Positions 7,585-30,398 of a stretch of DNA of 37,002 bases are shown here, one piece after another. A program made the translations under genes and the position numbers. The notes below the pieces were generated by a model. It saw only the letters and a program-made list of their open reading frames with translations. It was not told the origin of the DNA and did no database searches. The DNA is from an uncultured Rhodospirillales bacterium (lineage in GTDB: Bacteria; Pseudomonadota; Alphaproteobacteria; Acetobacterales; Acetobacteraceae), in NCBI GenBank assembly GCA_945957135.1, contig CAMFLK010000009.1, positions 1 to 37,002 on the forward strand, written 5' to 3'. Numbering within the stretch: the stretch's first letter is position 1; every line of letters starts with the position of its first letter.

Positions 7585-7622
7585 CAAAAGTCTTTTTGCT
7601 TCTTTTTCTTCAGAAAAAGAAG
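7585..7622 (+). repeat. A/T-rich hairpin repeat, copy A4
   Basis: CTTCTTTTTC (7599-7608) pairs with GAAAAAGAAG (7613-7622), preceded by AAAAGTCTTTTTG. The upstream context (AACGAGCAAAAGT) matches that of copy A1 (AACGAGCAGAAGT), so the repeat unit extends beyond the hairpin. It lies 39 bases upstream of lepA and so would be in the lepA leader if transcription starts earlier. Confidence 0.7.
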
Positions 7623-7661
7623 ATTCTTCCTTTCTCCCCTCAAACCCCCTATCTCCGCCCC

Positions 7662-9467
<1,806 letters not shown>

Positions 9468-9512: not shown

Positions 9513-9602
9513 GGAGAGATGGCCGAGCGGCTTAAGGCGCACGCTTGGAAAGCGTGTGTACGTGCAAGCGTACCGAGGGTTCGAATCCCTCTCTCTCCGC
9601 CA
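9513..9602 (+). tRNA. tRNA-Ser (anticodon GGA)
   Basis: A 90-base class II tRNA. The acceptor stem is GGAGAGA (9513-9519) with TCTCTCC (9592-9598), discriminator G and encoded CCA (9600-9602). The anticodon stem CACGC/GCGTG encloses TTGGAAA, giving anticodon GGA at 9547-9549 for UCC/UCU codons. A long variable arm follows, then a GGTTCGAATCC T-loop. The last 14 bases recur at 30385-30398, so the 3' end is an integration target and insertion left the tRNA intact. Confidence 0.97.
9589..9602 (+). other. attL core of the genomic island
   Basis: CTCTCTCTCCGCCA at the tRNA-Ser 3' end is repeated exactly at 30385-30398. Both copies are followed by a similar AACCCC run. A tyrosine integrase starts 148 bases downstream. 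Tyrosine recombinases of this class commonly use tRNA 3' ends as attB. Confidence 0.7.
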
Positions 9603-9749: not shown

Positions 9750-10988
9750 ATGGCCAAATTGACGGCGTTGGAAGTGAAGCGGATGAGCGCCCCCGGCCGC
9801 TATGGTGACGGCGGCGGGCTATGGCTCCAGGTCCGTGATGCTGAGCGGAAGTCGTGGCTCCTCCGCTTCATGCTCAACGGAAAGGCTCGCGAAATGGGCC
9901 TCGGGCCGATCGAGCTGGTCAGCCTCGCCGAGGCCCGTCAGAAGGCCATCGCTGGCCGCAAGCTACTGCTGGACGGCATCGACCCGCTCGACCAGCGCAA
10001 GGCCGAGAAGGCGGCTCGCGTCGCCCAGGCCGGGGCGTTCACCTTCAAGGAGGTCGCGGAGAAATACATCAAGGCCCACAAGGCCGGGTGGAAAAGCGAA
10101 AAGCACGCCGCGCAGTGGGAGGCGACGTTGACCACCTATGCGTATCCGCATTTCGGCGCCCATCTGGTGTCGGCCGTGGATACCGGTGATGTCACCAAGG
10201 CCCTCGAACCTATCTGGGCAACCAAGCCGGAAACCGCATCGCGGGTGCGTGGCCGCATCGAGTCCGTGCTCGACTATGCGAAGTCGCGGGGCTGGCGGCA
10301 GGGCGAGAACCCGGCGCGGTGGAAGGGCCATCTCGACAACCTGCTGCCGAAGCGGTCGAAGGTGGCCCGCGTCGAACATCACGCTGCCCTGCCCTGGCGT
10401 GAGATCGGGGCCTTCATGGCCAAGCTGGGCGAACAAGCCGGCATGGCCGCGCTGGCCCTCCGGTTCGCCATCTTGACCGCTGGCCGGACGGGCGAGGTCA
10501 TCGGGGCCAGGTGGTCGGAAATCGACATCGAGGCGGCGCTGTGGACCGTGCCGGCGGACAGGATGAAGGCCGCGCGTGAGCATCGCGTTCCCCTCTCCTC
10601 TGCCGCCCTGGCGATGCTGGGCGAGCTGCTACCGCTGCGGCCGCAGGATGGCGACGGCTATGTCTTCCCCGGCGGCAAGGCGGGCAAGCCGCTCAGCAAC
10701 ATGGCGCTCCTGATGGCTCTTCGGCGGATGGAGCGCGGCGATCTCACGGCGCACGGTTTCCGCTCTACGTTCCGCGACTGGTGCGCCGAGGCGACAGCCT
10801 ATCCGGCCGAGATGGCGGAGATGGCGCTGGCGCATGCTGTTGGCTCCAAAGTCGAGGCGGCGTATCGGCGAGGCGATCTGTTCGAGAAGCGGCGCGAGAT
10901 GATGAAGGAGTGGGCGGAGTTCTGCGGCGGCCCAGTCGCCCCCTCCGGTGCGGAGAGGGTGCCGATCCGACCGGCCATCCCGGCCTAA
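9750..10988 (+). CDS. tyrosine-type site-specific integrase (P4/DUF4102 family)
   Basis: A 412-residue recombinase that would insert and excise the island at tRNA-Ser. The N-terminal DUF4102 arm-binding domain (about 1-85, GRYGDGGGLWLQV, MGLGPIELVSLAEAR) is followed by a SAM-like core-binding domain (about 100-185) and the catalytic domain. Catalytic residues are visible as R246 (AGRTGEVIGARW), H335 and R338 (HGFRSTFRDW), H362 (ALAHAVG) and the nucleophile Y372 (AAYRRGD). All are present, so it appears intact. It reads away from the tRNA, as is usual for such islands. Confidence 0.95.
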   Translation: MAKLTALEVKRMSAPGRYGDGGGLWLQVRDAERKSWLLRFMLNGKAREMGLGPIELVSLAEARQKAIAGRKLLLDGIDPLDQRKAEKAARVAQAGAFTFKEVAEKYIKAHKAGWKSEKHAAQWEATLTTYAYPHFGAHLVSAVDTGDVTKALEPIWATKPETASRVRGRIESVLDYAKSRGWRQGENPARWKGHLDNLLPKRSKVARVEHHAALPWREIGAFMAKLGEQAGMAALALRFAILTAGRTGEVIGARWSEIDIEAALWTVPADRMKAAREHRVPLSSAALAMLGELLPLRPQDGDGYVFPGGKAGKPLSNMALLMALRRMERGDLTAHGFRSTFRDWCAEATAYPAEMAEMALAHAVGSKVEAAYRRGDLFEKRREMMKEWAEFCGGPVAPSGAERVPIRPAIPA

Positions 10989-11093: not shown

Positions 11094-12016
11094 CTATATC
11101 CCGTAATAGCGCGCGATCATCCCTTTGGCCGACTCCATGGCGCTTTGAACCGCCATTTTCCAAGCGATCGTGGCTGCTTCACTGATCCGGGATGCAAACC
11201 AAGCCTTGGCACCTGCTCCAAGCGGCTTTCCCGGTCCCTCGGGCGTCTCTTTTCGAACGATTTCTGCCAGCAAATTTGCATCAGCAAACGGTATTCCGAT
11301 TTTTTCGAACGCTCCAACCAATGAATTTACGTCGTTCTCAATCACTTCGAACACTATGTTTCCATGGCCGGTATGCGTGACTTGGTTTAGATTTCCATTA
11401 TATATTGTGTTGTTTGTAATATTCGTCACCAATTTACTTTGTTCGATCCCGATCGAAGCGGGTGTTCCGGTGCCGATGGATACTTCTTTCGCCGCGGGAA
11501 CCTGCTGCTCTATCTTAAAAGTTAAATCCAACAATCTGCCTCTAACGGTATTTTCAATTTGAACCAACCTGGATACAGATAAATGACATTCTACACCTAG
11601 AAGACTACCGTGCGAAAAACCTTATCCTGTAGTAATATCACAAGATTAGCTCTATTTATATTTAAATGTCGTGTTTCTCCACAATTGACTATTAAATCAT
11701 TGAGCTCTGCCAGACCTTGCCTGACACCGAATTCGTTAAACTCCTTCCCGATGTGCTCTTCGATCGCCGCGGGTGGAATGCCGACGTTGCGGTAGATGCC
11801 TTGATAACTTTGTAGTGTGCAGAAATATGCGACTTGGAACGTGCGATAGGCTGGAACTGGCACTTCGGGCGGGTAGCCCTCCGTTTCGTGCTGAACCCAC
11901 CCTTCAAGATCGCCGCTTCCCAACCTGCTCGCGAGAAAACGCATCTTGAGTAAGATGCTGGCAAGATTTGTTTTCTCATCAAGTAGCGACATCTGAATAT
12001 CAGCAAGCAAACCCAC
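11094..12016 (-). pseudogene. AbiTii-family abortive infection protein, frameshifted
   Basis: Two minus-strand frames together give one AbiTii-like protein. The N-terminal part (stop at 11597) contains SLLDE, ILLKMRFLASRLGSGDLE, EGYPPEVPVPAYR and RQGLAELN, which match the AbiTii domain. The C-terminal part (11094 to about 11615) continues with VECHLSVSRLVQIENTVRG, RLLDLTFKIE and the family-like C-terminus AKGMIARYYGI. They are joined by a -1 shift near 11596-11620. A GTG at 12016 behind GGGAG fits the N-terminus better than the internal ATG at 11992. Joined length is about 307 residues, near the family size. The region is AT-rich compared with its neighbours. AbiTii proteins are linked to abortive infection, but the mechanism is not known to me. 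This copy is probably inactive unless it is recoded or the sequence contains an error. Confidence 0.75.
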
Positions 12017-12286
12017 GACTCGCTCCCGGCACACTAAAGAACGCCAATCGATACAATCATGCGATCTGCGCGGCCGAGCATGCAACCAGAACTCTCTGCC
12101 GCAGGTGCCCCTCCAGCGCCCAAGCCCGGTCCACCTGTGGCTTTCCACACCGTCATGCTGGGAGGACTTCACCCGATGGCGCGTCTTCCTCAAGCTATTT
12201 GCCGGGTCCGAAGGCGACGCAAGGTGGGTTACGGCCGCCTTGGAGAACCGTGGGCACGCCGGATCGTGCCGGGGTAGCGCGTCCAC

Positions 12287-12564: not shown

Positions 12565-14334
12565 TCAGTGGATTCCCTGCATGGCGGTTTCGACGCGGGG
12601 CGGGGCGGCGGTGACGGGGCCGGTGCTGGTGACCCGCGCGGTAGTGCCAGCTGGGGCACCGCGGATATCGACCGAGACATTCACCGCCCCTTCAAAGCGC
12701 GACGCGGCCTGTGCACGCTCCATGGCGCGGTCATAGGTGTGCGCCGGAACCTCGAAACCGGCCGTCCAGATGCCCGCGGCCTGCGCTGCGGTCGGCGCTG
12801 CCCGCAAGGCAGTCAGGGCCGCCCGGCGGGTGGGATCGTTCAGCTCGTCCCAGGCGAACTGGTTCTGCTGATCGACTGTGGGATGGTCGCCGTAGCGGGC
12901 GCGCAGGCGGGCGAGGCGTTCGGCGTGGTGCTGATAGAGGCCGTAGCTGGTGCCGTTGTCGCCGACCAGATCGGGGTTGAAATTGCTCTCCGCCGCCGGG
13001 CCGCCCGCGAGGATGCCGGCGATCTGGGGTTCGGTGAACCCCTTGCTGGCCCAGAAATCATGCGTGCGCTGCATCACCGCGAAGGCGGCGGTGCCCGGCG
13101 CCGGCGGGGCGATGCTGGCGCCACGCTGTGACGATGCGGCGCCGCCCAAGAAGGTGGGTGCGTAATTGCGCCACAAGCGACGCAGACCCTGGTATTGCTC
13201 GACGGGCCCCATTCCCTGCGGCACAGGTCCGCCACCCCAATTACCGATCGGTCGGCCGAAATCATCGACCATCGGCACGTTCATCGCGCCGGCCGCCGCG
13301 CCGGCCGCACCGAGCGCTGCGACTGTCGCGGCGGCAGGGTTCATCAGCCCGAGGAATCTCCCGACTTTCGCCAGCAGCCTCGCACCAAATGCCGCGGCAC
13401 CGATTCCGGCAATCACTGTGCCGATCTCACCGTAGGAATCGGCCAATTCCTTGTTTTTTCCGATCCATTCAGCGGTGGTATTCATTGCGGACGTTGCCGC
13501 GGGCGCTAGCCTGTCAGCGGTACGATTTGCGACGCCTTCGATGGCAATTTCGAGACTTGAGTAGCTTGAAGCCAGAGCGTCGGCCCGCCGCGCTGCCTCG
13601 GGTGGAATGACGCCACCGAGTCCCGCAACCTTGGCCTGAAGGTCGGCTATGCCCTGCTTGCCTTTGAGGAGCATGGGGAACAACGCTTCCAAGCCGAGAT
13701 TCTGCGCCGCCCGAAGGGCTGCGCCCCTGCCCGCCTCGCCGCTGTCGTAGAGTTTCTTGATCCCCTCGGCCACATCGCCCAGCGCGTCCGCCGCGTTGCG
13801 CGCCCCGCCGGTGGCGATGTTGCGGAAACCCACCCCGAGCTGGTTGAAGGTCTGGATGGCGCCGGCATCGCCGCGGAACACCGCGCCGCGCAAGCGCTCA
13901 TCCAGATTGGCGAGGCCGCCGTCCAAATCCTCGGCACTCGCGCCGGCCAGGCGAGCGGCACCGCGCAGGGCGGTCAGGCGGTCGGTGGGCAGGCCGAGGC
14001 GTTGGCCCGTCTGCTGGGCCTGCTGGCCGAGTTGGGACCAGCGTTGCACCAGCAACGTCATGCCGGCGATGCTGGCGGCCCCGGTGATGGCGCCCATGGC
14101 AGGGGCGATGCGGTCGATGGAGCGGTACGCGTCGCCCGCGGTGGATGCGAGGGAGGTGAACCCCTTCTCCACGCGCTGGAACGGGTTCTCCTTCGCCACC
14201 CTGGCCACCGCCTGGCCGGTCTTTTCCGCCTGCGCGCCGACGCGGGTGAGGCGCTTGCCGACGGAATCGAAGGCCGGGCCGGTCTGATCCTTGCCGGTGA
14301 TGGCAATGTCGAGAGCGGGGACAGTTCCGGACAT
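12565..14334 (-). CDS. phage tail tape-measure protein with C-terminal tail lysozyme domain
   Basis: A 589-residue protein. Residues 1-300 are helix-rich (PALDIAITGKDQTGPAFDSV, with GLPTDRLTALRGAARLAGAS typical of tape-measure proteins). A hydrophobic, Ala/Gly-rich segment lies at about 305-355. Residues about 425-540 resemble the phage tail lysozyme domain: FWASKGFTEPQIAGILAG, AAESNFNP with Glu449 the probable catalytic acid, and SYGLYQHHAERLARL. In tailed phages such proteins set tail length and help cross the cell wall. It follows the S49 protease gene after two bases. No tail tube, tail sheath or chaperone genes surround it, so it is a single retained tail gene. Confidence 0.85.
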   Translation of the reverse strand: MSGTVPALDIAITGKDQTGPAFDSVGKRLTRVGAQAEKTGQAVARVAKENPFQRVEKGFTSLASTAGDAYRSIDRIAPAMGAITGAASIAGMTLLVQRWSQLGQQAQQTGQRLGLPTDRLTALRGAARLAGASAEDLDGGLANLDERLRGAVFRGDAGAIQTFNQLGVGFRNIATGGARNAADALGDVAEGIKKLYDSGEAGRGAALRAAQNLGLEALFPMLLKGKQGIADLQAKVAGLGGVIPPEAARRADALASSYSSLEIAIEGVANRTADRLAPAATSAMNTTAEWIGKNKELADSYGEIGTVIAGIGAAAFGARLLAKVGRFLGLMNPAAATVAALGAAGAAAGAMNVPMVDDFGRPIGNWGGGPVPQGMGPVEQYQGLRRLWRNYAPTFLGGAASSQRGASIAPPAPGTAAFAVMQRTHDFWASKGFTEPQIAGILAGGPAAESNFNPDLVGDNGTSYGLYQHHAERLARLRARYGDHPTVDQQNQFAWDELNDPTRRAALTALRAAPTAAQAAGIWTAGFEVPAHTYDRAMERAQAASRFEGAVNVSVDIRGAPAGTTARVTSTGPVTAAPPRVETAMQGIH

Positions 14335-14336
14335 GG

Positions 14337-15266
14337 CTATCTCTTCGATGCTTGAATGGTTCTGCGGGGCGGGCGGATACGAACCGCCCGCTCCGGCGGC
14401 CCGAGCTGCGCGAGCAAGCTGCGGAAGGCCTCGTCCGGCGCCATCACGGCGTCGGCGAAGCCGATCTCGACGCCGGCGGCGCCGAGAAAGGTGGTGGCCT
14501 GGGTGCCGCGCACGCGGGCGCTGGACAGGCCGCGGTTACGGGCGACGGTGGAGACGAAGATCTCGCCCATGGCATCCACATCGGCCTGGAAGCGCGCCAA
14601 GGCGGCGTCCGCCAGCGGCTGGTACTCGTTGCCGTCCGACTTCCTGTCGCCGAACTGGATCAGCGTGATGGCGATGCCGGCCTGGGCAAGGGCCTTGCTG
14701 AAATCGACATGCATGCAGATCACGCCGACCGAGCCGGTGCCGCCGGTGCGGGGCACGGTGATGCGGTCGCAGGCCGAGGCGATGGCGTAGGCGGCGGAAT
14801 ATGCGGAATCGTTCAGCACCGCCCATATGGGCTTGATGCCCCGCGCGTCGTGGATGGTGTCCGCGAGGTCGAAACAGCCGGACACCTCGCCGCCGGGGCT
14901 GTCGATATCCAGCAGCACGGCGCGGACCTCGGCATCCGCCAGCGCCTGCATCAGGTTGTGGCGGATGCCGTCATAGCCGGTCATGCCGCTATAGGGGCGC
15001 AGGCTGCCCAGGCGGTTGACCAGCGTGCCCTGCACGGGGATGACGGCCACGCCGAGCACCACGTCGTAGGCGCGCTGTTCGGCCGGGCCGGCATCGCCCT
15101 CGTCCCAGGCGCCGGCATCGAGGGCGACCATCTGGCCGCCGATGCGGGCGAAGCTGGCGATGCCCAGGCGCTGGGCCAGGGCGGCGGTGACGATCTCCGC
15201 CTTGCGCGGCGTGATGGCAAGCGGCGTGTTGAACAGCCGCTGGGAGAGGTGGGGAAACGGATTCAT
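14337..15266 (-). CDS. S49 family (SppA-like) head maturation peptidase
   Basis: A 309-residue ClpP/crotonase-fold serine peptidase of family S49, the type that processes capsid scaffolds in lambda-like phages. Visible motifs are VIPVQGTLV (about 75-83), LLDIDSPGGEVSG (118-130), the nucleophile Ser157 in DSAYSAAYAIASA, and the general base Lys209 in GDRKSDGNEYQPL. The open frame extends to 15743, but the ATG at 15266 overlaps the upstream stop as ATGA. No capsid or portal gene accompanies it, so its natural substrate is missing from this element or supplied in trans. Confidence 0.9.
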   Translation of the reverse strand: MNPFPHLSQRLFNTPLAITPRKAEIVTAALAQRLGIASFARIGGQMVALDAGAWDEGDAGPAEQRAYDVVLGVAVIPVQGTLVNRLGSLRPYSGMTGYDGIRHNLMQALADAEVRAVLLDIDSPGGEVSGCFDLADTIHDARGIKPIWAVLNDSAYSAAYAIASACDRITVPRTGGTGSVGVICMHVDFSKALAQAGIAITLIQFGDRKSDGNEYQPLADAALARFQADVDAMGEIFVSTVARNRGLSSARVRGTQATTFLGAAGVEIGFADAVMAPDEAFRSLLAQLGPPERAVRIRPPRRTIQASKR

Positions 15267-15643
15267 CGTGCGTTCGGCCTGGCCGAGACAGGGGACGGCG
15301 CTGTGGCGGTTGGCGCGTCGTTGGTCGGCACCAGCTGCGGCACAAACGCCGTACGCTGAGGGAAGGCGCTGGCAGCCGGCGGAGAATCCCGTAGGCAGGC
15401 AACGACCGTCTCGGCTGAGATGCCGGTGGTCGCGAGCAGCTGGCGCGCCAGGGGCGGGTTGCGCAGGAAGGCACGATTCGCCAACACAGTGGCCCACCGC
15501 TCCCGTTCCGCCAGCTCGCCGCGGCGATAGGCCGCTTCGGCCTCGTTGCCCTGCCCAGCTTCGACCTGCGGTGCTGGGTCGAGGAGCGCTGCAGCTTCCG
15601 CCTCGCCGAAGCCGGGAGCGGTATCTGTCTCCGTGACGGACAC
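15263..15643 (-). CDS. unknown phage-block protein, 126 aa
   Basis: I do not recognise this protein. It is acidic at the N-terminus (ETDTAPGFGEAEAAALL), with a central helical stretch (AYRRGELAERERWATVLANR) and a Pro/Thr/Ala-rich C-terminus. The start is GTG at 15643, three bases after the preceding stop. The stop overlaps the S49 peptidase start by four bases, so the two are probably translationally coupled. Its position before a head protease suggests a structural or scaffold-like protein, which is inference only. Confidence 0.7.
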   Translation of the reverse strand: MSVTETDTAPGFGEAEAAALLDPAPQVEAGQGNEAEAAYRRGELAERERWATVLANRAFLRNPPLARQLLATTGISAETVVACLRDSPPAASAFPQRTAFVPQLVPTNDAPTATAPSPVSARPNAR

Positions 15644-15646
15644 GCG

Positions 15647-15808
15647 TCAGGCTTTCCTTGCTGAGATGGTGCGCATTTGACCCTCGGCGGTTCGCCGCGG
15701 AGAGGGCGGTTTCCCCGTGGCGCGCGCGAATGCCAAATCCCACGAGCGTGCAATCTCGGCGGAGGTAAGCTTCCTTGAAGATGAAGAGGAGATCGGGGCT
15801 TTACGCAT
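15647..15808 (-). CDS. small unknown protein, 53 aa
   Basis: A short basic protein (MRKAPISSSSSRKLTSAEI, then ARSWDLAFARATGKPPSPRR). The ATG at 15808 overlaps the end of the upstream gene by eight bases, and the stop is three bases before the next start. This fits the compact operon and is the main reason to believe it. Function unknown. Confidence 0.5.
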   Translation of the reverse strand: MRKAPISSSSSRKLTSAEIARSWDLAFARATGKPPSPRRTAEGQMRTISARKA

Positions 15809-16730
15809 TCTGAGTATTCCTCGGCGGGGAGTAGGTGCTCCTGTATTCCGAGAAACGCGGGGGTGGCGGCAGGGCGGCGCGCCGCGCATCTTCTGCGGCA
15901 CGGCGCTCGGCCGCCTCGCGGTTTCGTTCGGCCTGAAGCATCTCGGGCGGCATGCGGTGATCCACCGGCGGGGGCGGGGCGATCGGCCGATGAGCCGCGG
16001 CTTCCCGGCGCAGAGTGGCGATGGGAGCGAGGTATTCGGCCAGTGCCTCAGCCCCGGGAATGGTCGGCCAGGCTGTCTGCACGTCGAGGCGCTCGCCGCC
16101 AGGCAATTTCGCGTGGCGCGAGTCGAGGATGGTTGCCCGCTTCTCAGGAACCCAACTCGGCGACGGGATGCGAAGCTCCTCCAGTACCGAATTGGTCCAG
16201 CTGATCAATCCGACGCTGAGGAGCGCGTGTGTCTTGGCGAGCGGAACGAGGAGGGCCTGGGCCGCCCGCTGCAATTCGTCGTGAAGAGAATCGAGGATAT
16301 GACCCGCGAAATCACTGACCTCGCGGTCGAAGGACGTCTTGGCCATGCCGATTTCCGCATCCGCGGTCGCCGCCTTCGCGACGAGCGCGCCCTTCATGCG
16401 GGCGGCGCGAGAGGCCGCTACCACGGCAAAGCTCATCCGTTCCGTCGCAGCGGCAAGGTCATCTTCCAGCTGCGCAACAGCGAGCGTGTCGGTCTCGATC
16501 GCCAGTTTCACCTCGATTTCCGCGACTGCGGCAGCGGCCGCTTCTTCCTGCTGCTTGGTTCCTCCGATCGCTTGAGCGTTGGCAGCGATCGCCGCGTCGA
16601 TATCGACGCGGACCTGTAGCGTTTCCTTCAACTTGCTCATCGCGGTGAGGAGCGCCGGGGTCATTTCGTACCCCGCGGTCGCAGCAGCTTTGGCGGTCGA
16701 ACTCGCTTTAAAGCCTGGAATCTTGAGCAT
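15801..16730 (-). CDS. coiled-coil protein of the phage block, 309 aa
   Basis: Not recognised. From the ATG at 16730 (MLKIPGFKASSTAKAAATAG), preceded by AGGA at good spacing, the protein has a long Ala/Glu-rich helical region (about 50-160, with KQQEEAAAAAVAEIEVKLAI) predicted by eye to be coiled coil. A more globular middle follows (HILDSLHDELQRAAQALLVP) and a Pro/Arg-rich tail (AERRAAEDARRAALPPPPRF). The frame is open to 16967, but that part overlaps the preceding small gene. A scaffold role is possible given the nearby S49 protease, but this is speculative. Confidence 0.65.
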   Translation of the reverse strand: MLKIPGFKASSTAKAAATAGYEMTPALLTAMSKLKETLQVRVDIDAAIAANAQAIGGTKQQEEAAAAAVAEIEVKLAIETDTLAVAQLEDDLAAATERMSFAVVAASRAARMKGALVAKAATADAEIGMAKTSFDREVSDFAGHILDSLHDELQRAAQALLVPLAKTHALLSVGLISWTNSVLEELRIPSPSWVPEKRATILDSRHAKLPGGERLDVQTAWPTIPGAEALAEYLAPIATLRREAAAHRPIAPPPPVDHRMPPEMLQAERNREAAERRAAEDARRAALPPPPRFSEYRSTYSPPRNTQNA

Positions 16731-16866
16731 CCCGATGTCCTGTGTGGTTTTCAAAGAAGTTGCTGCCTGCCGACCTTTCCCGGAGATGCGCACCCCCGCA
16801 CCGAGGTCGGCTTCGCTCCCCGCCGGGCAGCAAGGCGACGTGAACATCCGCGAGGGCGCGTCTTGC

Positions 16867-17079
16867 TCAGCACCGAACCTGAGGTTTGTGTGCGGGCCGA
16901 GATTTCTTCGAGACTCGAGCTGCCGGACCCGCCACCTCTTCGCGGATGGTCTGGCGGGCCGTGGCACGGAGCAGCGTTTCGACCAGGCGGTATCCCTGGG
17001 AGGGCCGCAGTTGCACGGTCTGGTTACCCACGCCGATACGCAGGTCGTCCGAGATCGTCACGCCGCCGATTCTCAGCAT
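16867..17079 (-). CDS. small unknown protein, 70 aa
   Basis: Starts MLRIGGVTISDDLRIGVGNQ at an ATG with GGAG seven bases upstream, a good ribosome binding site. The central part (QGYRLVETLLRATARQTIRE) could be a helix-turn-helix or winged-helix fragment, and the C-terminus is basic. It is a member of the minus-strand phage block between the 157-residue protein and the coiled-coil protein. Function unknown. Confidence 0.65.
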   Translation of the reverse strand: MLRIGGVTISDDLRIGVGNQTVQLRPSQGYRLVETLLRATARQTIREEVAGPAARVSKKSRPAHKPQVRC

Positions 17080-17128
17080 CGTTCAACTCCATCGTTTGGA
17101 TAGAGAATCGGGCACCGGCCGCGGAAAT

Positions 17129-17602
17129 TCATGCGCCGAATTTAATTGGGGCATATGATTTCCGCGCCCGCGCGATGATTGTCTGAAGGCGCTTGTTTCC
17201 GGGCAACGGGCGGCCGGTGCGAGGAATGGCTTCGAGCATGCGCAATGCCTCGGTCTCCGCGGCCCGGCCCGCCCGAAAAAATGACCGGGCCATGTCCTCC
17301 AGCGCTTGCGCAGCGGTGGGGACGGGCAACGTCCCGAAAAGCTCGCGATCGATCGCGGCGATGAGCCGGTCTCGCTCGGCCTGCCCTTGCCGGGTCCACC
17401 ATCCCTTCTCGCCGCGCGCTGGTGCGAGCTGCAACGCGGCATCCAATGAGCGCCGCGGGGCGGTCTCGAGATAGGTGCGCAGGCCCGACAGGAGAAACAT
17501 GCGCTCGGGACCATCAAGGTCGGCCCCATGCTCAAGCTGCCTGACGATCCGCCGCAGCCGTGCCACGGCCTCATCAGCGCGGGCTTCACCGGCGGTGAGC
17601 AT
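17129..17602 (-). CDS. unknown phage-block protein, 157 aa
   Basis: A mostly helical soluble protein (EARADEAVARLRRIVRQLEH; ERDRLIAAIDRELFG; AAQALEDMARSFFRAG) with a basic C-terminal end. It starts at the ATG at 17602 behind a G-rich ribosome binding site and overlaps the end of the small terminase gene by 17 bases. In a normal phage the large terminase would stand here. This protein shows no Walker A or nuclease motif, so it is not a large terminase. Confidence 0.75.
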   Translation of the reverse strand: MLTAGEARADEAVARLRRIVRQLEHGADLDGPERMFLLSGLRTYLETAPRRSLDAALQLAPARGEKGWWTRQGQAERDRLIAAIDRELFGTLPVPTAAQALEDMARSFFRAGRAAETEALRMLEAIPRTGRPLPGNKRLQTIIARARKSYAPIKFGA

Positions 17603-18113
17603 TGGGCCCCCCCTGCTCAGCCCGCGGACTGCCGCCAGCGCCACTCAGGGCAGGAAGGGACGAGACGACCTCGGTGCAGGCCATCTCGCCGAGAATGCCG
17701 AACGCCACACGGGTGAGTTCCGCCTGCACCGCCGCAGCGGTGGTGAGGGTTATGACGACCGGCGCCGCCCGAGCCGGGAGGCTTTGCAGCCCAACGCAGA
17801 TGCGGTCCAGCATCGCGGTGACGACAATCTCGACATCCTGCACCGAAACCGCCTCAGCGCTCAGGCTCGCGGCTCGCAGCTCCGCTGCTTCAGCCTGGGC
17901 GATGGTGAGCCGCCTACGCGCTTCGTCCACAGTCTGCCCATCTTCGTCCGGGTTGCCCGCGACTGCCCGCAAGCGAGCGCAGTAGGCGAGACAACAAGCC
18001 GACAAATCGTACGGCTCGTGTGGCGCTCCGGGGAGCACGCCCTCGGCCCGCAGTTCTTTTACGCGTCGCCCGCTGATGCCCAGCAAGCCGGCGACTTCCG
18101 CGACAGTTGCCAT
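17586..18113 (-). CDS. Nu1-like terminase small subunit
   Basis: A 175-residue protein with an N-terminal winged HTH (MATVAEVAGLLGISGRRVKE, LRAEGVLPG) followed by a helical region (DEARRRLTIAQAEAAELRAA), the organisation of lambda gpNu1-like packaging recognition subunits. Such proteins bind cos or pac DNA and recruit the large terminase. Here no large subunit is encoded nearby. The ATG at 18113 fits the family. Satellite elements are known to use their own small terminase to redirect a helper phage's packaging, which is one reading of its isolated retention. Confidence 0.75.
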   Translation of the reverse strand: MATVAEVAGLLGISGRRVKELRAEGVLPGAPHEPYDLSACCLAYCARLRAVAGNPDEDGQTVDEARRRLTIAQAEAAELRAASLSAEAVSVQDVEIVVTAMLDRICVGLQSLPARAAPVVITLTTAAAVQAELTRVAFGILGEMACTEVVSSLPALSGAGGSPRAEQGGPNAHRR

Positions 18114-18299
18114 GGGAGGAGGAACCCCTAACAAAAATTGGTGCCTAGAAAACCAAAGGGCCGCGAATGCCTCGCGATTGGGGTGGGGGCCGGGAGGGAC
18201 CCATGCCGGGGTTTGCGGCAGGACGGGACCGGTTGGCAGGGGCGCGCGTGCGAAGCGCGCTCTGCCTGCTGGCCGTCCTTTGGGAAATGGGGTCCGGGG

Positions 18300-18323
18300 T
18301 TTTCCGGGGTTTCGCTCGGGTTT
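18300..18323. repeat. 24-base direct repeat, copy 1
   Basis: Begins TTTTCCGGGGTTTCGCTCGG and continues GTTT. It is identical to 18403-18426. Further CCGGGGTTTT-like partial words lie just upstream at 18294-18303. Confidence 0.85.
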
Positions 18324-18402
18324 GGGTTTTCGCCAATTCCGCCCCGGTATTTTTTTTGGCGTAAGGACAAAAAAAACCGGGGCGGCTCTTTCTGGCTTCC
18401 AA

Positions 18403-18426
18403 TTTTCCGGGGTTTCGCTCGGGTTT
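18403..18426. repeat. 24-base direct repeat, copy 2
   Basis: An exact second copy, ending three bases before the stop codon of the RepA-like gene. The inverted repeat at 18339-18385 lies between the two copies. Confidence 0.85.
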
Positions 18427-18428
18427 TG

Positions 18429-19691
18429 TCATGCCGCCTCCCCGCCTTCCGATGCCTCAGAAGCCGATATCCAGGGTGCCGGAGGCAGCCCGTCGGGTGA
18501 CCTGTATCCCTGCGCAACCCGACGCCTGGCATCATGGAACGACGCCACGATGAAACCGGCATGTTGGAGTTGGTTCAGCGCTACTTGCTGCGCTGCCTTC
18601 GTCACAAGCCCATGGTCGAGGAGAAGATGCTGTATCGATCGCGGCTCGGATCGGGACATGCGCGGCGACCATGGGCCGATGCTCGATCCCTTGGCCACGG
18701 ACCGCTCGATGGCAAGCATCGTCTCCGGGACGATGGCACTGACCGGCGGGTCCCAGGGTCGCGGCACGGCGATCCAATCGCCATTATCGAGCTGAATGCT
18801 GTGTCGCTCGAACCACTCGCAATCAGTCAAGGCAGAATAGTTCGCTTTTGCACCGTCAACCCTGAAGTAACCGCGATGAGCGCCTGCCGGGAGGCCGAAC
18901 GAGTTGGCTTCGTCGGCGGTCATCGCTGTGACGGTCAGGGCGATACGCACGGCGCCGATGATGGAGGATGCGCCTCGGGCAACATCAGGATCACCGGCGG
19001 CCGTCGCGCCTTTGCGGGTGTGATGCACGATCAGGATGGCGAGGTTCTTGGCCACCGCCAGGGAGCGGAGCTTGGCCATCACGCCACGCATGGGGATGTT
19101 CGAGTTCTCGTCCTCGCTGTGGATCTCCGCAAAGGGATCGAGCACCAGCGCGTCCGGCTTGTGATGATCGATGGCCTTCATCAGCTCGTGCCACGCCGAG
19201 GTCTCGACGATCCGTCCCGTCTCGGGATGGCGATCGAACAGAAGCGCCGTTTGCACCGGAGTGGCCAATATGATGCGGCCGGCAATTTCGGCCGGTGCGC
19301 GACCCATGAGCCGGAGGGTGCCGGAAAGACGACGCTGTTGCTCATGGTGATCGTCCTCGGCGTTCATCAGGAGCACTTTGACGGGTGCCGTGGGCTTCAT
19401 GCCGTTGCAGTCTTCCCCGAACGACAGCGCAGAGGCGTAGGCGAGCGCGAGGGCCGATTTCGACACGCCGGGTTGGCCGATGAGGGCGGTGATGGCGCCG
19501 CGCAGCAGATAGCGCTGGGCGATCCATTTCCGAGGCGGCAGGTCGGCCTCATTCCATCCCGCAGTGGTGATCGCCAGTGCGCTTTCGCCATCCGCGCCGG
19601 GGGCTTCGGCGTGATCGTCGGCATGGGGGTCGTGATGCTCTTGCCGCCCGTGCCGGCGCAGGTAATCCTCGGGTGAGTTCATGTTGTCCAT
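18429..19691 (-). CDS. RepA-like AAA ATPase / replicative helicase
   Basis: A 420-residue RecA-fold ATPase of the RepA/AAA_25 type. Walker A is GQPGVSKS at 72-79 (SKS in place of the usual GKS) and Walker B is ALVLDPF at 181-187. The LAILIVHHTRKG segment is typical of hexameric RepA-like helicases of plasmids and prophages. A C-terminal winged-helix-like region follows (QHLLLDHGLVTKAAQQVAL). The open frame extends to 19919, but the ATG at 19691 overlaps the primase stop by one base, so the two are coupled. It probably unwinds or loads at the island origin. Confidence 0.85.
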   Translation of the reverse strand: MDNMNSPEDYLRRHGRQEHHDPHADDHAEAPGADGESALAITTAGWNEADLPPRKWIAQRYLLRGAITALIGQPGVSKSALALAYASALSFGEDCNGMKPTAPVKVLLMNAEDDHHEQQRRLSGTLRLMGRAPAEIAGRIILATPVQTALLFDRHPETGRIVETSAWHELMKAIDHHKPDALVLDPFAEIHSEDENSNIPMRGVMAKLRSLAVAKNLAILIVHHTRKGATAAGDPDVARGASSIIGAVRIALTVTAMTADEANSFGLPAGAHRGYFRVDGAKANYSALTDCEWFERHSIQLDNGDWIAVPRPWDPPVSAIVPETMLAIERSVAKGSSIGPWSPRMSRSEPRSIQHLLLDHGLVTKAAQQVALNQLQHAGFIVASFHDARRRVAQGYRSPDGLPPAPWISASEASEGGEAA

Positions 19692-20629
19692 CAGGCCGCC
19701 ACCGCTTGGGTGACGTCGAGCCAGTCTTGGCCGGGCGGCGGGATATACAGGGTTGTTTCCCGCCCGGCTTCCGCCCAGCGTGTCGCGCAGGTACGGGCTG
19801 CATCGACGCCGGCGCCGGAATCGTCGGCGTCCGCAAAGATGGTCAACGCCTCGATGCCGGCCAGAACTGGAAACGTCCTGATCGCGCCAGCGGACCCGCA
19901 GGCCCAGACCGGCCGCCAACCGGCGCTCTGCATCACGCCCAACGCGGTCTCGATGCCCTCAGCGAGCCCGAGGCCGCCCGTAACCTGTTCGTCTGGGCAG
20001 AGGCGGATGATCCCGGAATTGCCGAGCATCAACTTCGTCTTCTCCACCTCGGCCTTACCCGAACCGTCAGGACGCAGCAGCGTGCGGTGGATGCCTTGGG
20101 GTTTAGCGGTGGCCGGGTCCGTCATCAGCGCGACCATGCCGGGGTGGCCATGGGCGCAGGACGGATGAAACCGAAGCGGCGCATCGGCTGGGAGCGTCAA
20201 TCCGCGCGAGTTGAGGTACGCCTCCACTGGCGTTCCGCCGGGGGGGACCGCTTCTGTCCAGAGGCGACGCGCGACCTCGACCGTCTCCTTCTCCGGCTTG
20301 CTGACCGGTTCTGCTGAAATGCGGATCGGGGCGGACCGGGGCGTCGTCTCGAACTGGCCACCAAGGTGATGCACCGCTTCGTGCAGCGACATCTGTCGGG
20401 TGCGCATCAACCAGTCAAAGACATCTCCATGGGCACCGCAGCCGAAGCAGTGGAAGAAGCGCTTGTCGTCCTTCACGGTGAACGAAGGGCTCCGCTCGGC
20501 ATGAAACGGGCAGCACGCGACGAACTCCTGGCCATTGCGGCGGAGCGGCAGGGTCTGCGAGACGACAGCGGCGATGGAGACGCTGGCCTTCAGCGCATCG
20601 ATGGTCTGCGGCGGGAGGGTCGAGTTCAA
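19691..20629 (-). CDS. DnaG-type primase with CHC2 zinc finger and Toprim domain
   Basis: A 312-residue primase. The N-terminal CHC2 zinc-binding motif has CPFH (C40, H43) and CFGC (C61, C64). The C-terminal Toprim domain shows GLGLAEGIETALGVMQ and LTIFADADDSGAG with the metal-binding acidic residues. It lacks the C-terminal DnaB-interaction domain of chromosomal DnaG, which fits a phage or plasmid primase working with the adjacent RepA-like ATPase. The start overlaps the upstream 112-residue gene by four bases. Confidence 0.92.
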   Translation of the reverse strand: MNSTLPPQTIDALKASVSIAAVVSQTLPLRRNGQEFVACCPFHAERSPSFTVKDDKRFFHCFGCGAHGDVFDWLMRTRQMSLHEAVHHLGGQFETTPRSAPIRISAEPVSKPEKETVEVARRLWTEAVPPGGTPVEAYLNSRGLTLPADAPLRFHPSCAHGHPGMVALMTDPATAKPQGIHRTLLRPDGSGKAEVEKTKLMLGNSGIIRLCPDEQVTGGLGLAEGIETALGVMQSAGWRPVWACGSAGAIRTFPVLAGIEALTIFADADDSGAGVDAARTCATRWAEAGRETTLYIPPPGQDWLDVTQAVAA

Positions 20630-20964
20630 TTCGCGCCCTCCCGCTGCTTCCGCCGTGCATCTCGCTCGGCCTGGCGCTCGTCGAAGCGGCGCCGCTCATA
20701 CTCGGAGATGGCGGCCCAACGTGTTGCGGCCTCCTGGGCGACGAGGACGCGCAGCTGTGCCGAAATTTCGAGCCGCAGCCTTTCGTCTCGCAGGTCCGCC
20801 GGCAGTGACACCGCGCCGTCGTTGAGCAAATAGGCGACGAAGCGAAACGGCCCGACGTTCACCATGCCCTCGGCGATGGTGCGCTCGCCGAAATGGCCGG
20901 TGTTACGCAAGCCGAGGGCGACCTGTTTGATCTCGAACGCGGGCGGGGTATCGGCTGCGCTCAT
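20626..20964 (-). CDS. unknown replication-operon protein, 112 aa
   Basis: Not recognised. The N-terminal half is globular (FEIKQVALGLRNTGHFGERT; GPFRFVAYLLNDGAVSLP). The C-terminal half is a charged helix (EYERRRFDERQAERDARRKQ). It overlaps both neighbours by four bases (ATGA type), so it belongs to one translationally coupled minus-strand operon with the primase and ATPase. Function unknown. Confidence 0.75.
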   Translation of the reverse strand: MSAADTPPAFEIKQVALGLRNTGHFGERTIAEGMVNVGPFRFVAYLLNDGAVSLPADLRDERLRLEISAQLRVLVAQEAATRWAAISEYERRRFDERQAERDARRKQREGAN

Positions 20965-21286: not shown

Positions 21287-21472
21287 TTAGGCGGCGGATT
21301 TCTGAACGTATTCTTCGATCGAGGCGTAGACTGGCAATCTGCGGCCAGCGACCTCGGCGGTCTGGATTTTGCCCGACTTGACCAGCTTCCAGTACGTGGT
21401 CTGGCCGATACCGAGCAGCCTGCGCGCTTCGGCGGTGGTAACCAGTAGGGGCTTCAACTCAGGGTTTTTCAT
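21287..21472 (-). CDS. excisionase/AlpA-type helix-turn-helix protein
   Basis: A 61-residue DNA-binding protein: LLVTTAEARRLLGIGQTTYW, KLVKSGKIQTAEV, GRRLPVYASIEEYVQK. This is the MerR-like excisionase HTH (HTH_17) layout. ATG at 21472 has AGGA upstream. It probably controls excision or switches on the replication operon downstream. It may replace the broken AlpA-like gene at 12287-12437. Confidence 0.85.
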   Translation of the reverse strand: MKNPELKPLLVTTAEARRLLGIGQTTYWKLVKSGKIQTAEVAGRRLPVYASIEEYVQKSAA

Positions 21473-21691
21473 TTGATGTCGTCCTAGTGTGGAAGTGACC
21501 CAACTAGGATGGTGCTTTTGAAGCTGCCGTCTAATCATGCCGAGAAAAAAGCGGCAGGATTCGCAACGCGTTGAAATACATAAACTTTCGGGCAATCCCG
21601 CCATTCTGCCAACCCGCCGCGAGAAGCGGCATGATTTCGGAAGGAGATTTGGCTCGCTCCGGTCGTGGGGTTTCTCACTCCCGCGATGCGC

Positions 21692-22540: not shown

Positions 22541-22813
22541 CTAGCCTTGGCACCGCTGGACGCTGGAGGCGAAGTAGAGGTCCGGCTCCGCTTTGAAGGC
22601 GCGCAGGTCGTCGTACATGTCGGCCACCTGAGCGGCCAGATCGCGCTCCACGCTGCGCAACGCACCGCCCTCGACGCAGTGGTCAACGTCAAGGACCACG
22701 CATGCCGCCTCCACCACGAGGCGGAGGGCGCACAACGACTCGTCGAGGTGGGCCGCCATGCGCTCCACAAACTCAATGGCGAGCGGCAGGTCTGGGGTGT
22801 CTGGGGCGCTCAT
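22541..22813 (-). CDS. unknown protein, 90 aa
   Basis: Starts MSAPDTPDLPLAIEFVERMA at the ATG at 22813, which overlaps the stop of the Tat-signal gene by four bases. It is an acidic helical protein (HLDESLCALRLVVEAACVVL; RDLAAQVADMYDDLRAFKAE) without signal peptide. It is the last gene of a minus-strand run with the two Tat-exported paralogues. The 227 bases beyond it (22313-22540) show nothing I can name. Confidence 0.65.
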   Translation of the reverse strand: MSAPDTPDLPLAIEFVERMAAHLDESLCALRLVVEAACVVLDVDHCVEGGALRSVERDLAAQVADMYDDLRAFKAEPDLYFASSVQRCQG

Positions 22814-23226
22814 GACTGCGCCTCCCCGCCGTAGAGCCGCAGCAGGTCGCCGACGATATCCCATGCCCAGTCCTCGGCTGGGCAGTTCGCGGGATGCTCC
22901 GATTCCTCGTCGCCATCAAACGCTCGGGCCTCGACCTTGGCGGCCCGGCACTTCGCCAGGATACCGGCCATTGTCATCGGCTGGGCCTCGCCGATGCCGT
23001 CGCGCGTCTCCGAGTAGGCGTTCCAGAACGGATTATCGTCGATATTGTCGTATTCAAGCGGCGACGTGTTGTAACCCTCGATGTTCAGCGGATGCCGGCG
23101 GCACATCTCGATCAGCGCCGCGTCAGGGTGCGGCGCCGGCGGGGTGGCACAAGCCCGCCCAGGCACCCCAGGAACGCCCAGGACGGCGGCGCTGGCGCCT
23201 AGCAGGGTGCGACGAGAGACGGTCAT
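22810..23226 (-). CDS. Tat-signal exported protein, paralogue 2
   Basis: 138 residues. The N-terminus MTVSRRTLLGASAAVLGVPG is a twin-arginine signal with SRRTLLG followed by a hydrophobic stretch and an Ala-rich cleavage region. The mature part shares HPDAALIE, MAGILAKCRAAKVE and DWAWDIVGDLLRLYG with the neighbouring gene, so the two arose by tandem duplication. It overlaps both neighbours by four bases. The function is unknown to me. Export via Tat would place it in the periplasm. Confidence 0.8.
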   Translation of the reverse strand: MTVSRRTLLGASAAVLGVPGVPGRACATPPAPHPDAALIEMCRRHPLNIEGYNTSPLEYDNIDDNPFWNAYSETRDGIGEAQPMTMAGILAKCRAAKVEARAFDGDEESEHPANCPAEDWAWDIVGDLLRLYGGEAQS

Positions 23227-23621
23227 GGCGCGACCTCCCCAAACAGGCGCAGGAGATCGTTGATGATATCGAGCGCCCAGTCAGCGGCTGGGGTGCCACC
23301 CACATCATGCGAGCCGTCCGGATGGGTGCCCTCGACCTTCGTGGCCCGCGCTTTTGCCACGATCCCGGCCAGTGTCACAGGGCGCAGCTCGCCGACAGCA
23401 TCCAGCGATTCGTCATAGAGTTGGCCCAATGCCTCGTGCGCATCCTCATCGTCGCCCTCGTCATAGTTGAAGGCGAAGAAGTTCTTGATGTGGCGTTCGC
23501 AGGCTTCGATCAACGCGGCGTCGGGGTGGGGTGCGGGCGAGGATGGGCCCGGCGGCGCTGTGACGGCCAGGGCAGCGGCGCTGCCCAGCAACAGACGGCG
23601 CGTGAAGGGCGGGATGGGCAT
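23223..23621 (-). CDS. Tat-signal exported protein, paralogue 1
   Basis: 132 residues starting MPIPPFTRRLLLGSAAALAV, a twin-arginine-type signal (TRRLLLG). The mature part has HPDAALIEACERHIKNFFAF, LAGIVAKARATKVEG and DWALDIINDLLRLFG, parallel to the next gene. I chose the ATG at 23621 because GGAG stands nine bases upstream. An in-frame ATG at 23636 has no ribosome binding site. It is coupled to paralogue 2 by an ATGA overlap. Confidence 0.8.
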   Translation of the reverse strand: MPIPPFTRRLLLGSAAALAVTAPPGPSSPAPHPDAALIEACERHIKNFFAFNYDEGDDEDAHEALGQLYDESLDAVGELRPVTLAGIVAKARATKVEGTHPDGSHDVGGTPAADWALDIINDLLRLFGEVAP

Positions 23622-23688
23622 GGTGGTGGTCTCCATCTTGGAGGGTGCCGGCGCGCGGCCGGCGCAATTCAGGCGGGGGGAGTGACGC

Positions 23689-23838
23689 TCAGCGGCCCTT
23701 GGTCGGGCGCGGCGGCGGCGGCTCATAGGTCGGCGGCGGTAGCACCGGGACGGGGGCGCCGCGCACGGTCTCGGGCGGTGGCCAGCGGTGCCGGGCAGCC
23801 CTCACAGGCAGAGTTGTGGTATGGGCGTGTTTAGCCAT
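23689..23838 (-). CDS. small proline-rich protein, 49 aa
   Basis: Starts MAKHAHTTTLPVRAARHRWP at 23838, with AGG close upstream, and ends in a Pro-rich tail (VPVLPPPTYEPPPPRPTKGR). It precedes the two Tat genes on the same strand and may share their promoter. Coding status is uncertain because low-complexity Pro/Arg sequence is easily produced by GC-rich DNA. Confidence 0.4.
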   Translation of the reverse strand: MAKHAHTTTLPVRAARHRWPPPETVRGAPVPVLPPPTYEPPPPRPTKGR

Positions 23839-26978: not shown

Positions 26979-27164
26979 GGCGCCGTTTGCCGACTGTCAC
27001 CTATTCTATTGCCGCCACCCCAAAGTCGGCCGGCCGGCCATACAGCGTCAGATGAACGCCTGGAGGTCATCGGCGTTTGGGTTACGCCATGCAGGGCTTC
27101 GGTTGCGGTCACCCCGCAAATCGAGGATTCCCCTGGCGACGTGGCCATGGCACCTTGTTTCGTG

Positions 27165-27896
27165 ATGGAGGACACCGTGGGGGCGATCCCAGCCGCGCTT
27201 GGCATTTACAGCGTCCAAGACGCTGCCCGTCTTACAGGCGTGGCGCCGCGGCAAATTCGTGGCTGGCTGCAAGGGTACGGCCAGAGAGAAGGGAAAGCCC
27301 AAGCGGCGCCTGTGCTGCACCGCCAACACGAGCTGCGAGACGGTGAACTAGCGCTTGGCTTCCTCGACCTTCTCGAGGTCGCGTTTCTCGGCGGCCTCGT
27401 CCGCGCCGCAGAGGCGCAGGGGCGCACGCCCAGCTGGAAAGCGATCCGCCGGGCGGCCGAGACAGCCCGTCGCCTCATGAACACAGACCACCCATTCGCT
27501 ATGCGTCGCATCCACACTGACGGAAAGTACATTTTCGCGGAGGCCCACAAAGCCACAGGCGACCGCGCGCTCTACGACCTGGTGGAAGACAATTTTGCGA
27601 TCTACGACGTGGTGGTCGACAGCTTCATCGCCAGCGTCGATTATCAGGATGACGCGCCGCAACGCTGGATGCCGGATAGCCGCTTCGATCGCATCGTTGT
27701 AGATCCGCGCCGTGCGTTCGGCAGGCCCATCGAAATCGTCAGTGGCGCACCGGTCGAAGCTCTGTTCGACGCATGGCGCTCAGAGCGGGGCAATGCGGCG
27801 CGCGTCGCAGCATTCTACGGGACGGATACGATCGGCGTCGATCAGGCAGTACGGTTCACCTTGGGCGTGAGCGCGCCGCTCCCGCTCGCCGCGTGA
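27165..27896 (+). CDS. antitoxin: HTH plus DUF433-like domain
   Basis: 243 residues. The N-terminal HTH (IYSVQDAARLTGVAPRQIRG, WLQGYG) is followed by a middle helical region (FLDLLEVAFLGGLVRAAEAQ) and a C-terminal DUF433-like domain (VDPRRAFGRPIEIVSGAPVE to VDQAVRF). DUF433 proteins often act as antitoxins for PIN-fold toxins encoded next door. The stop overlaps the toxin GTG by four bases. ATG at 27165 is chosen. ATG at 27147 is possible, and neither has a strong ribosome binding site. It should neutralise the toxin and repress the pair. Confidence 0.8.
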   Translation: MEDTVGAIPAALGIYSVQDAARLTGVAPRQIRGWLQGYGQREGKAQAAPVLHRQHELRDGELALGFLDLLEVAFLGGLVRAAEAQGRTPSWKAIRRAAETARRLMNTDHPFAMRRIHTDGKYIFAEAHKATGDRALYDLVEDNFAIYDVVVDSFIASVDYQDDAPQRWMPDSRFDRIVVDPRRAFGRPIEIVSGAPVEALFDAWRSERGNAARVAAFYGTDTIGVDQAVRFTLGVSAPLPLAA

Positions 27897-28318
27897 GGAT
27901 CGTCTTCGACGAGAATACGCCGCGCGTTGTCGCCCACGCCGTGAAGTTGATTGCCGAAGCCGAAATGGCGGGGATGCCGGACTCGCTTGAAGTGTTCCAT
28001 GCTCTCGACTTCGCACCGCGGGGGACGAAGGACGTACCGCTTATCCAGCGGGTCGCGGATGGCACGCACGCCAAGTCCACACTGATCACCTCTGACAAGA
28101 CCATGCGCACGCGGCGCCACGAGCGTGCGGCCTTCTCGGAGACAGGGTGTATCGGCATCATGTTGTGTGGGCATTGGAACCACGCTTCGATGTGGGACAG
28201 GGCGCGACTTTCCCTGGTCTGGTGGGAAACCTGGATGGAAACGGTCACGTCGTCAGATCCCGGCCGCCTGTGGCAATGCCCCTGGTCGGCAAAGCCCAGA
28301 GCGCTTAAGCAGTTTTGA
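27893..28318 (+). CDS. PIN-like (VapC45/DUF5615-type) toxin
   Basis: 141 residues starting at GTG 27893 inside the antitoxin stop (GTGA). The N-terminus VRIVFDENTPRVVAHAVKLI has the acidic FDEN motif of PIN-like nucleases. LITSDKTMRTRRHERAAF carries the second conserved Asp and the downstream Arg/His/Glu region. PIN toxins cleave RNA with metal ions. The coupled gene order antitoxin-toxin supports the call. An unusually Trp-rich C-terminus (LVWWETWME) follows. Confidence 0.78.
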   Translation: MRIVFDENTPRVVAHAVKLIAEAEMAGMPDSLEVFHALDFAPRGTKDVPLIQRVADGTHAKSTLITSDKTMRTRRHERAAFSETGCIGIMLCGHWNHASMWDRARLSLVWWETWMETVTSSDPGRLWQCPWSAKPRALKQF

Positions 28319-30384: not shown

Positions 30385-30398
30385 CTCTCTCTCCGCCA
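30385..30398 (+). other. attR core of the genomic island
   Basis: CTCTCTCTCCGCCA, identical to the tRNA-Ser 3' end at 9589-9602, followed by AACCCC as in attL. It also sits in a small inverted repeat (GGCGGA 30379-30384, TCCGCC 30392-30397). The CT repeat lowers the weight of the match somewhat. Confidence 0.65.

Follow-up and report, generated by a model that had tools for sequence, protein, structure and literature searches.

The DNA analysed here, referred to as the window, is a stretch of 37,002 nucleotides of contig C9 from a 4.4-Mb draft genome (G000) of an uncultured Rhodospirillales bacterium of the family Acetobacteraceae, the only genome of its genus in our collection. The window contains a mobile element (9589-30398), and the subject of this study is a block of phage-type late genes (12565-18113) within this element. 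The integration target is a tRNA-Ser(GGA) gene (9513-9602, plus strand; ARAGORN and Rfam) with lepA (7596-9467) upstream of it. A repeat search showed that the last 14 bases of this tRNA gene (attL, 9589-9602, core CTCTCTCTCCGCCA) recur exactly at 30385-30398 on the plus strand (attR), directly in front of a chromosomal gene of the major facilitator superfamily, and from this 14-bp direct repeat the size of the element was deduced to be ~20.8 kb. A tyrosine integrase of 412 aa (9750-10988, plus strand; PF22022, PF13356, PF00589, phrog_1) is encoded next to attL and is 56% identical to the integrase of a related element, L116, which occupies the same lepA/tRNA-Ser site. With integrase, att repeats, and replication genes, the locus has the general make-up of a phage satellite, that is, of an att-bounded integrative element.

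All genes of the late block lie on the minus strand, and all open reading frames (ORFs) in it are intact, several of them overlapping or abutting. The first encodes a terminase small subunit, TerS (17586-18113), with HTH_17 and Nu1-like parts (phrog_57, E 3.5e-22). It is followed by p157 (17129-17602), a small protein without a family in profile searches, by p70 (16867-17079), a small ORF with GGAG upstream whose winged-helix likeness was noted by eye only, and by p309 (15801-16730), a mostly helical orphan likewise without a family. The single-sequence AlphaFold model of p309, of low confidence (pLDDT 58), showed long helices. The next gene, p126 (15263-15643; phrog_6382, E 4.3e-5), shares its family with L074:7501-8226 (E 3.7e-22) and is, in residues 52-110, 42% identical to a gene of L220 situated between S49 and capsid. 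We call p126 scaffold-like, a putative role taken from where its family lies in full phages, namely between the protease and capsid genes.

The two last genes of the block encode an S49 head-maturation protease of 309 aa (14337-15266; phrog_53, E 2.7e-118; PF01343, E 4.9e-28) and a tape measure protein of 589 aa with a C-terminal Phage_lysozyme2 tail lysozyme (12565-14334; phrog_9570, E 4.5e-39; PF18013, E 6.8e-19). Ser157 and Lys209 of the protease, presumably the SppA-type catalytic pair of the S49 family, were invariant in an alignment of its phage homologues. The serine aligned with the active-site stretch of SppA in PDB 3rst. A large terminase (PF05876, PF03237) was not found on the contig in a six-frame hidden Markov model (HMM) search, and searches of the element's ORFs with Pfam and phrog profiles revealed no portal, capsid, sheath, or tube family. 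The element therefore lacks the large terminase, portal, and major capsid protein that mark a complete prophage, and the profile searches confirm the unusual combination described in an earlier sequence-only reading of the window, namely small terminase, S49 protease, and tape measure/lysozyme without the central packaging and head genes. The tight packing emphasized in that reading was found in part: the protease and tape measure genes are 2 bp apart, p126 and the protease gene overlap by ATGA, terS and p157 overlap by 17 bp, and the primase and ATPase genes farther upstream overlap by TGATG, but in the middle of the block two ORFs are flanked by gaps of about 50, 136, and 157 bp, so that packing is not uniform.

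The region upstream of terS (18134-18428) contains two identical 24-bp repeats (18300-18323 and 18403-18426) and one 17-bp inverted repeat, and its codon-position GC content is not coding-like; it is a candidate cos or pac site. An ORF at 18145-18432 was discarded because its codon composition spoke against a gene. Direct repeats upstream of terS are also present in a related island, L072 (11146-11244, three copies around AACCCGCAACCCG), and are candidate packaging sites there as well. Beyond this region follow, again on the minus strand, an AAA_25/RepA-like replicative ATPase (18429-19691; PF13481, E 3.3e-31; phrog_25693, E 1.6e-83), a primase with CHC2 zinc ribbon, DUF7146, and Toprim_3 domains assigned by Pfam (19691-20629), p112 (20626-20964), which overlaps the primase gene and has no assigned family, and an AlpA-like helix-turn-helix (HTH) excisionase or regulator of uncertain start (21287-21604; phrog_66, E 7e-4; PF12728, E 3.8e-5). 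Integrase, AlpA-type regulator, primase, and ATPase thus all accompany TerS, as had been proposed from the sequence before.

The gene order of the block was compared with that of full phages. Contractile-tailed prophages of Acetobacteraceae and of IMG/VR with a GpA-type terminase, an S49 protease, and a sheath (L074, L145, and others) represent the source family of the element's protease, scaffold-like gene, and tape measure, but possess a full head and tail gene set. The closest S49 proteins were all found in full prophages, with identities of up to 65% in genomes of the same family and up to 73% in IMG/VR, and comparison of the protease with that of L145 gave 0.24 nonsynonymous (dN) and 1.84 synonymous (dS) substitutions per site. 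The order in these phages is large terminase (phrog_15), portal (phrog_21), S49, scaffold-like gene (phrog_6382), capsid (phrog_29), sheath (phrog_165), and tape measure. All 80 IMG/VR loci that contain a related S49 protease had the portal gene as the next one upstream, about 1.5 kb away, and where the contigs reached far enough, capsid and tape measure were located about 2.3 kb and about 7 kb downstream, respectively. Because protease and tape measure are so far apart in full phages, their direct adjacency in the element is exceptional. In addition, p126 lies upstream of the protease gene, on the side opposite to that of the scaffold-like gene of full phages; no capsid or portal remnant was present between the element's genes; and up to 10 kb upstream of S49 in the IMG/VR phages did not contain a match to the primase or the RepA-like ATPase. 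The closest phage tape measure found was that of a Komagataeibacter phage. Close relatives of the tape measure were absent from the genome contigs searched, and none of TerS, ATPase, or tape measure had close relatives in the viral contigs searched.

To look for related elements, 150 genomes of the order were searched with tape measures, and all matches fell within the same family. References, among them large terminase, portal, sheath, and capsid, were used to screen the 20-kb neighbourhoods of the matches. Gene calls at these loci were derived from ORFs and codon-position heuristics and are uncurated; absence of portal, sheath, and capsid refers to tblastn searches with references from other loci, and absence of large terminase to HMM searches of the genomes G000, G068, G004, G108, G110, G018, and G120. 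More than 20 loci proved to be full prophages, whereas nine, including the element on C9, contained neither large terminase nor portal. Four of the eight further elements are att-bounded at tRNA genes of their own and comprise 10-18 kb. L069 (G068; 17.9 kb, 50-bp att repeat, tRNA-Arg) encodes an integrase, AlpA, a primase 52% identical to that of the C9 element, an ATPase, TerS, and a tape measure with an SLT domain. L116 (G120; 12.5 kb, 19-bp att repeat, lepA/tRNA-Ser) has an integrase, an HNH protein, an S78 prohead protease, and a tape measure, and L113 (G018; 15.1 kb, 52-bp repeat, tRNA-Thr) has an integrase, an AlpA-like protein, a DUF3987 protein, and a tape measure. The fourth, L114 (G018:C7, 4316-14752; 10.4 kb, 19-bp repeat, tRNA-Ala), encodes a D5-type primase, a TerS-like protein, a tape measure, an S78-capsid fusion, and an integrase, and represents a capsid-forming variant with tape measure that has no large terminase or portal. 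The other four are L076 (G004), with integrase, a 107-aa tail protein (phrog_166), tape measure, S49 protease, and primase; L109 (G108) and L117 (G110), each with integrase, tape measure, and primase; and L078 on contig C4 of G000, with an ATPase, an S78 protease, and a tape measure with lysozyme. A search for capsid-less relatives had been suggested as the means to distinguish a satellite from a decayed prophage, and their occurrence in several species supports the preference for a satellite expressed at that time. The pairing of protease and tape measure recurs as well, with S49 in L076 and the unrelated S78 protease in L078 and L116. Two related islands, L071 and L072, contain TerS but no tape measure match.

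The tape measures of these elements were analyzed further. In a tree of tape measure N-termini, the capsid-poor elements were scattered among prophages, with seven changes, at least four of which are forced by starred branches. As the tape measures of the capsid-poor elements are polyphyletic, their capture must have recurred, with four events as the minimum. In G108, the tape measure of the element L109 (G108:C5; L109:8852-10750) and its nearest prophage homologue, that of the full prophage L103 in the same genome (G108:C10; L103:11735-13591), are 82.5% identical over residues 1-389 and 79% identical over the last 52 residues, whereas the middle parts are unrelated, including the hydrolase domain, which is Phage_lysozyme2 in L103 and matches transglycosylase/endolysin-type families (phrog_873, phrog_7182) in L109. 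Over the 389 codons shared, dN was 0.12 and dS 1.69, i.e., a dN/dS ratio of about 0.07. For the capsid-less elements L116 and L117, 841 codons gave a dN of 0.43 and a saturated dS of about 2.4 (dN/dS about 0.18). These low ratios indicate that the tape measures are not unselected remnants; they apply to relatives of the C9 element, whose own tape measure has no close relative. The assumption that satellite tape measures are uniformly shorter was not supported, as they range from 509 to 943 aa compared to mostly 618-756 aa in prophages.

On the basis of gene content and comparison with relatives, we consider the block to be probably the late module of a phage satellite integrated at tRNA-Ser, which would supply parts determining size and specificity while a helper phage supplies the bulk of the virion. 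In other systems, it is established that satellite TerS proteins redirect packaging and that satellite scaffolds change head size. The most likely helper would be a contractile-tailed phage with GpA-type terminase, S49 protease, and sheath, in which the closest relatives of the element's head and tail genes reside; it would provide large terminase, portal, capsid, tube, sheath, baseplate, and lysis functions. The element's TerS would bring the helper's large terminase to the DNA of the satellite, with the 24-bp repeats in front of terS as a possible site; p126 and the S49 protease would assemble and mature the helper's capsid protein, possibly into satellite-sized heads; and the tape measure/lysozyme would substitute for that of the helper in chimeric tails, as in Vibrio PLEs (phage-inducible chromosomal island-like elements). 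More tentatively, with the odds slightly against it, the Acetobacteraceae may harbour a loose guild of such satellites, which would encode TerS, scaffold-like proteins, protease, and tape measures with exchanged hydrolase and form hybrid heads and tails from bulk proteins of a helper. Their tape measures would stem from repeated captures out of different phage lineages; in one genome the source would be a close relative of the resident prophage's tape measure, with a different hydrolase domain.

Several observations weigh against assignment of the element to the satellites. Its behaviour as a satellite is read from sequence, and no helper was found: in a six-frame HMM search, large terminases of G000 were detected only on contigs C11 and C172, which carry fragments of other prophages. 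With E about 1e-5, the homology of p126 is weak; the att core, of 14 bp, is short and rich in C and T; and no sequence homology across elements was seen among the helical proteins encoded ahead of protease or tape measure. We found no experimental precedent in the literature for a satellite that encodes a protease of its own while lacking a capsid. From the divergence of the S49 protease and tape measure, mosaic assembly cannot be told apart from descent from one phage type, because tape measures diverge fast between full phages, too. The fragments on C11 and C172 (L130 and L131, respectively) contain a large terminase and capsid- and portal-like ORFs and might represent a helper or be unrelated.

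An unlikely alternative is that the element is a decaying contractile-tailed prophage of the S49 type that lost its head genes and most of its tail genes by deletion, with TerS, protease, and tape measure left by chance. The occurrence of the closest S49 relatives exclusively in full phages fits such an origin, as does the fact that TerS, scaffold-like gene, protease, and tape measure all belong to this phage type, and the protease has a 21-residue C-terminal extension relative to its prophage homologues that could be a deletion or fusion scar. Full prophage relatives combined with deletion scars at this locus had been named in advance as the evidence that would speak for decay; the former were found for the protease, whereas the displaced scaffold-like gene and the missing capsid and portal remnants do not agree with simple loss of the intervening genes. 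The intact, overlapping ORFs of the block and the lack of matches to the replication genes in the up to 10 kb searched upstream of S49 in the phages also argue against it. Moreover, random decay is unlikely because eight more capsid-poor elements carry tape measures without large terminase or portal; the same logic is seen in elements that captured their tape measures independently, and those that could be tested are under purifying selection.

We regard it as similarly unlikely that the element is an unpackaged defence island in which TerS, protease, and tape measure would be dominant-negative decoys poisoning the assembly of invading phages. Defence by interference with tail assembly is established for satellites and prophages (PMC11364771; PLE Rta), and the element carries an AbiTii-like gene. 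However, integrase, AlpA-like regulator, primase, and TerS with its upstream repeats are mobilisation functions, the known tail-assembly inhibitors Tai and Rta are not described as homologues of tape measures, and the catalytic features of protease and lysozyme are kept, which a decoy would not need. A decoy function is compatible with that of a satellite, and both could coexist. Very unlikely is a non-phage integrative element with the backbone of an integrative mobilisable element that uses captured phage genes for purposes other than packaging, such as the tape measure/lysozyme for an envelope function, since, although the RepA-like ATPase is similar to ATPases of mobilisable plasmids and islands, profile scans of the proteins searched revealed no relaxase, and outside virion assembly neither TerS nor a head-maturation protease has an obvious function.

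Among known satellites, the element interpreted here as a satellite can be compared with the Vibrio cholerae PLEs, in which a satellite tape measure likewise stands beside replication and integration genes and the phage supplies the capsid (PMC12987554). In PLEs, chimeric tails contain the satellite's tape measure in place of the helper's, and when it is lost, transduction drops by 96-99.9%. PLEs were presented in 2026 as the first known case of satellites that manipulate tail assembly, leaving open what is gained by remodelling the tail, and putative tmp genes were noted in some capsid-forming phage-inducible chromosomal islands (cf-PICIs) (PMC12987554, Extended Data Fig. 10). The view of the sequence-only reading that a tape measure would be unusual for a satellite has to be corrected; the tape measure is a recurrent and selected component rather than a stray remnant. 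PLEs differ in encoding a tail assembly chaperone, to which PLE11 adds a baseplate hub protein (PMC12987554); neither was recognised here. No tail assembly chaperone family was found in the ORFs neighbouring the tape measure gene, and the phrog_166 gene of L076 fits such a protein in position and size. Conversely, TerS, head-maturation protease, scaffold-like gene, alphaproteobacterial host, and tRNA integration site distinguish the element from PLEs.

Gram-negative PICIs share with the element the integrase, an AlpA-type regulator, a primase/replication module, an optional terS, and att boundaries (PMC6092414). They are given as typically about 15 kb in size, compared to 20.8 kb between the att repeats of the element and about 10-18 kb in its relatives, and are described as devoid of phage structural and lytic genes (PMC6092414), whereas the element has S49 and tape measure/lysozyme genes. 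cf-PICIs resemble it as satellites with head-morphogenesis genes but make their own capsid, and L114 is nearer to this type. Since the element carries structural and lytic genes and no capsid, portal, or large terminase was found in it, we place it with neither group. In the capsid-size redirection by Staphylococcus aureus pathogenicity islands, P4, and PLEs, satellite scaffold-type proteins alter the size of the helper's head; the candidate in the element differs, being a scaffold-like gene of phage type accompanied by a protease of its own, and the likeness would be one of function. For comparison with P4-like satellites, the element's primase is of the CHC2/Toprim_3 type. Satellites as such, and satellite tape measures in PLEs and putatively in cf-PICIs, were already known; new with respect to the literature searched are probable tape measure satellites in Alphaproteobacteria, the combination of protease and tape measure without capsid in two unrelated protease families, the repeated capture, and the G108 pair. 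Recurrent, selected tape measures in capsid-poor elements of several Acetobacteraceae genera would turn the remodelling of tails into a general strategy of satellites, and a head protease with a tape measure but no capsid points to remodelling of heads, too. The G108 prophage/element pair, with matching ends and different hydrolase regions, would offer a direct test of the benefit of tail remodelling.

Outside the family, capsid-less tape measure elements were also looked for in 13 loci from other alphaproteobacterial families. Three of these had no terminase, portal, or capsid matches and were not otherwise explained; they turned out to be P2-like tail clusters, and the candidates were rejected. 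L225 and L226 (both G351) are P2-like tail-only clusters with sheath, tape measure, and baseplate-type genes and without recognisable head genes, and might be tailocins; L226 adjoins an integrase like that of the C9 element at tRNA-Ser, and L225 is located near an integrase fragment and tRNA-Pro.

The remaining genes of the C9 element include the AbiTii-like gene (11597-12286, minus strand, start uncertain; PF18864, E 5.6e-24; PADLOC AbiTii, E 2e-22), which is probably phage-defence cargo judging from these matches and sits at the block's end, where the DNA is richer in AT. At 27009-28318 an HTH protein gene precedes an ORF whose start is PIN-like (RIVFDENTP), possibly a toxin-antitoxin pair, and a PEP-CTERM protein gene (PF07589; 29105-29674) is located near attR. 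The region of p107 and p138, the latter with a twin-arginine translocation (TAT) signal (22541-23226, minus strand), has homologous DNA of 83-88% identity in L078 (10169-11023) on contig C4, indicating that the two elements of G000 exchanged or share DNA, whereas identities between their ATPases and between their tape measures are no higher than 22-29%. The stretch 22810-23726 encodes small proteins that are tandem paralogues and have a TAT-like signal (RRxLLG...); relatives of these were present in L078, in L072, and, weakly, in L069, and in none of the prophage loci compared.

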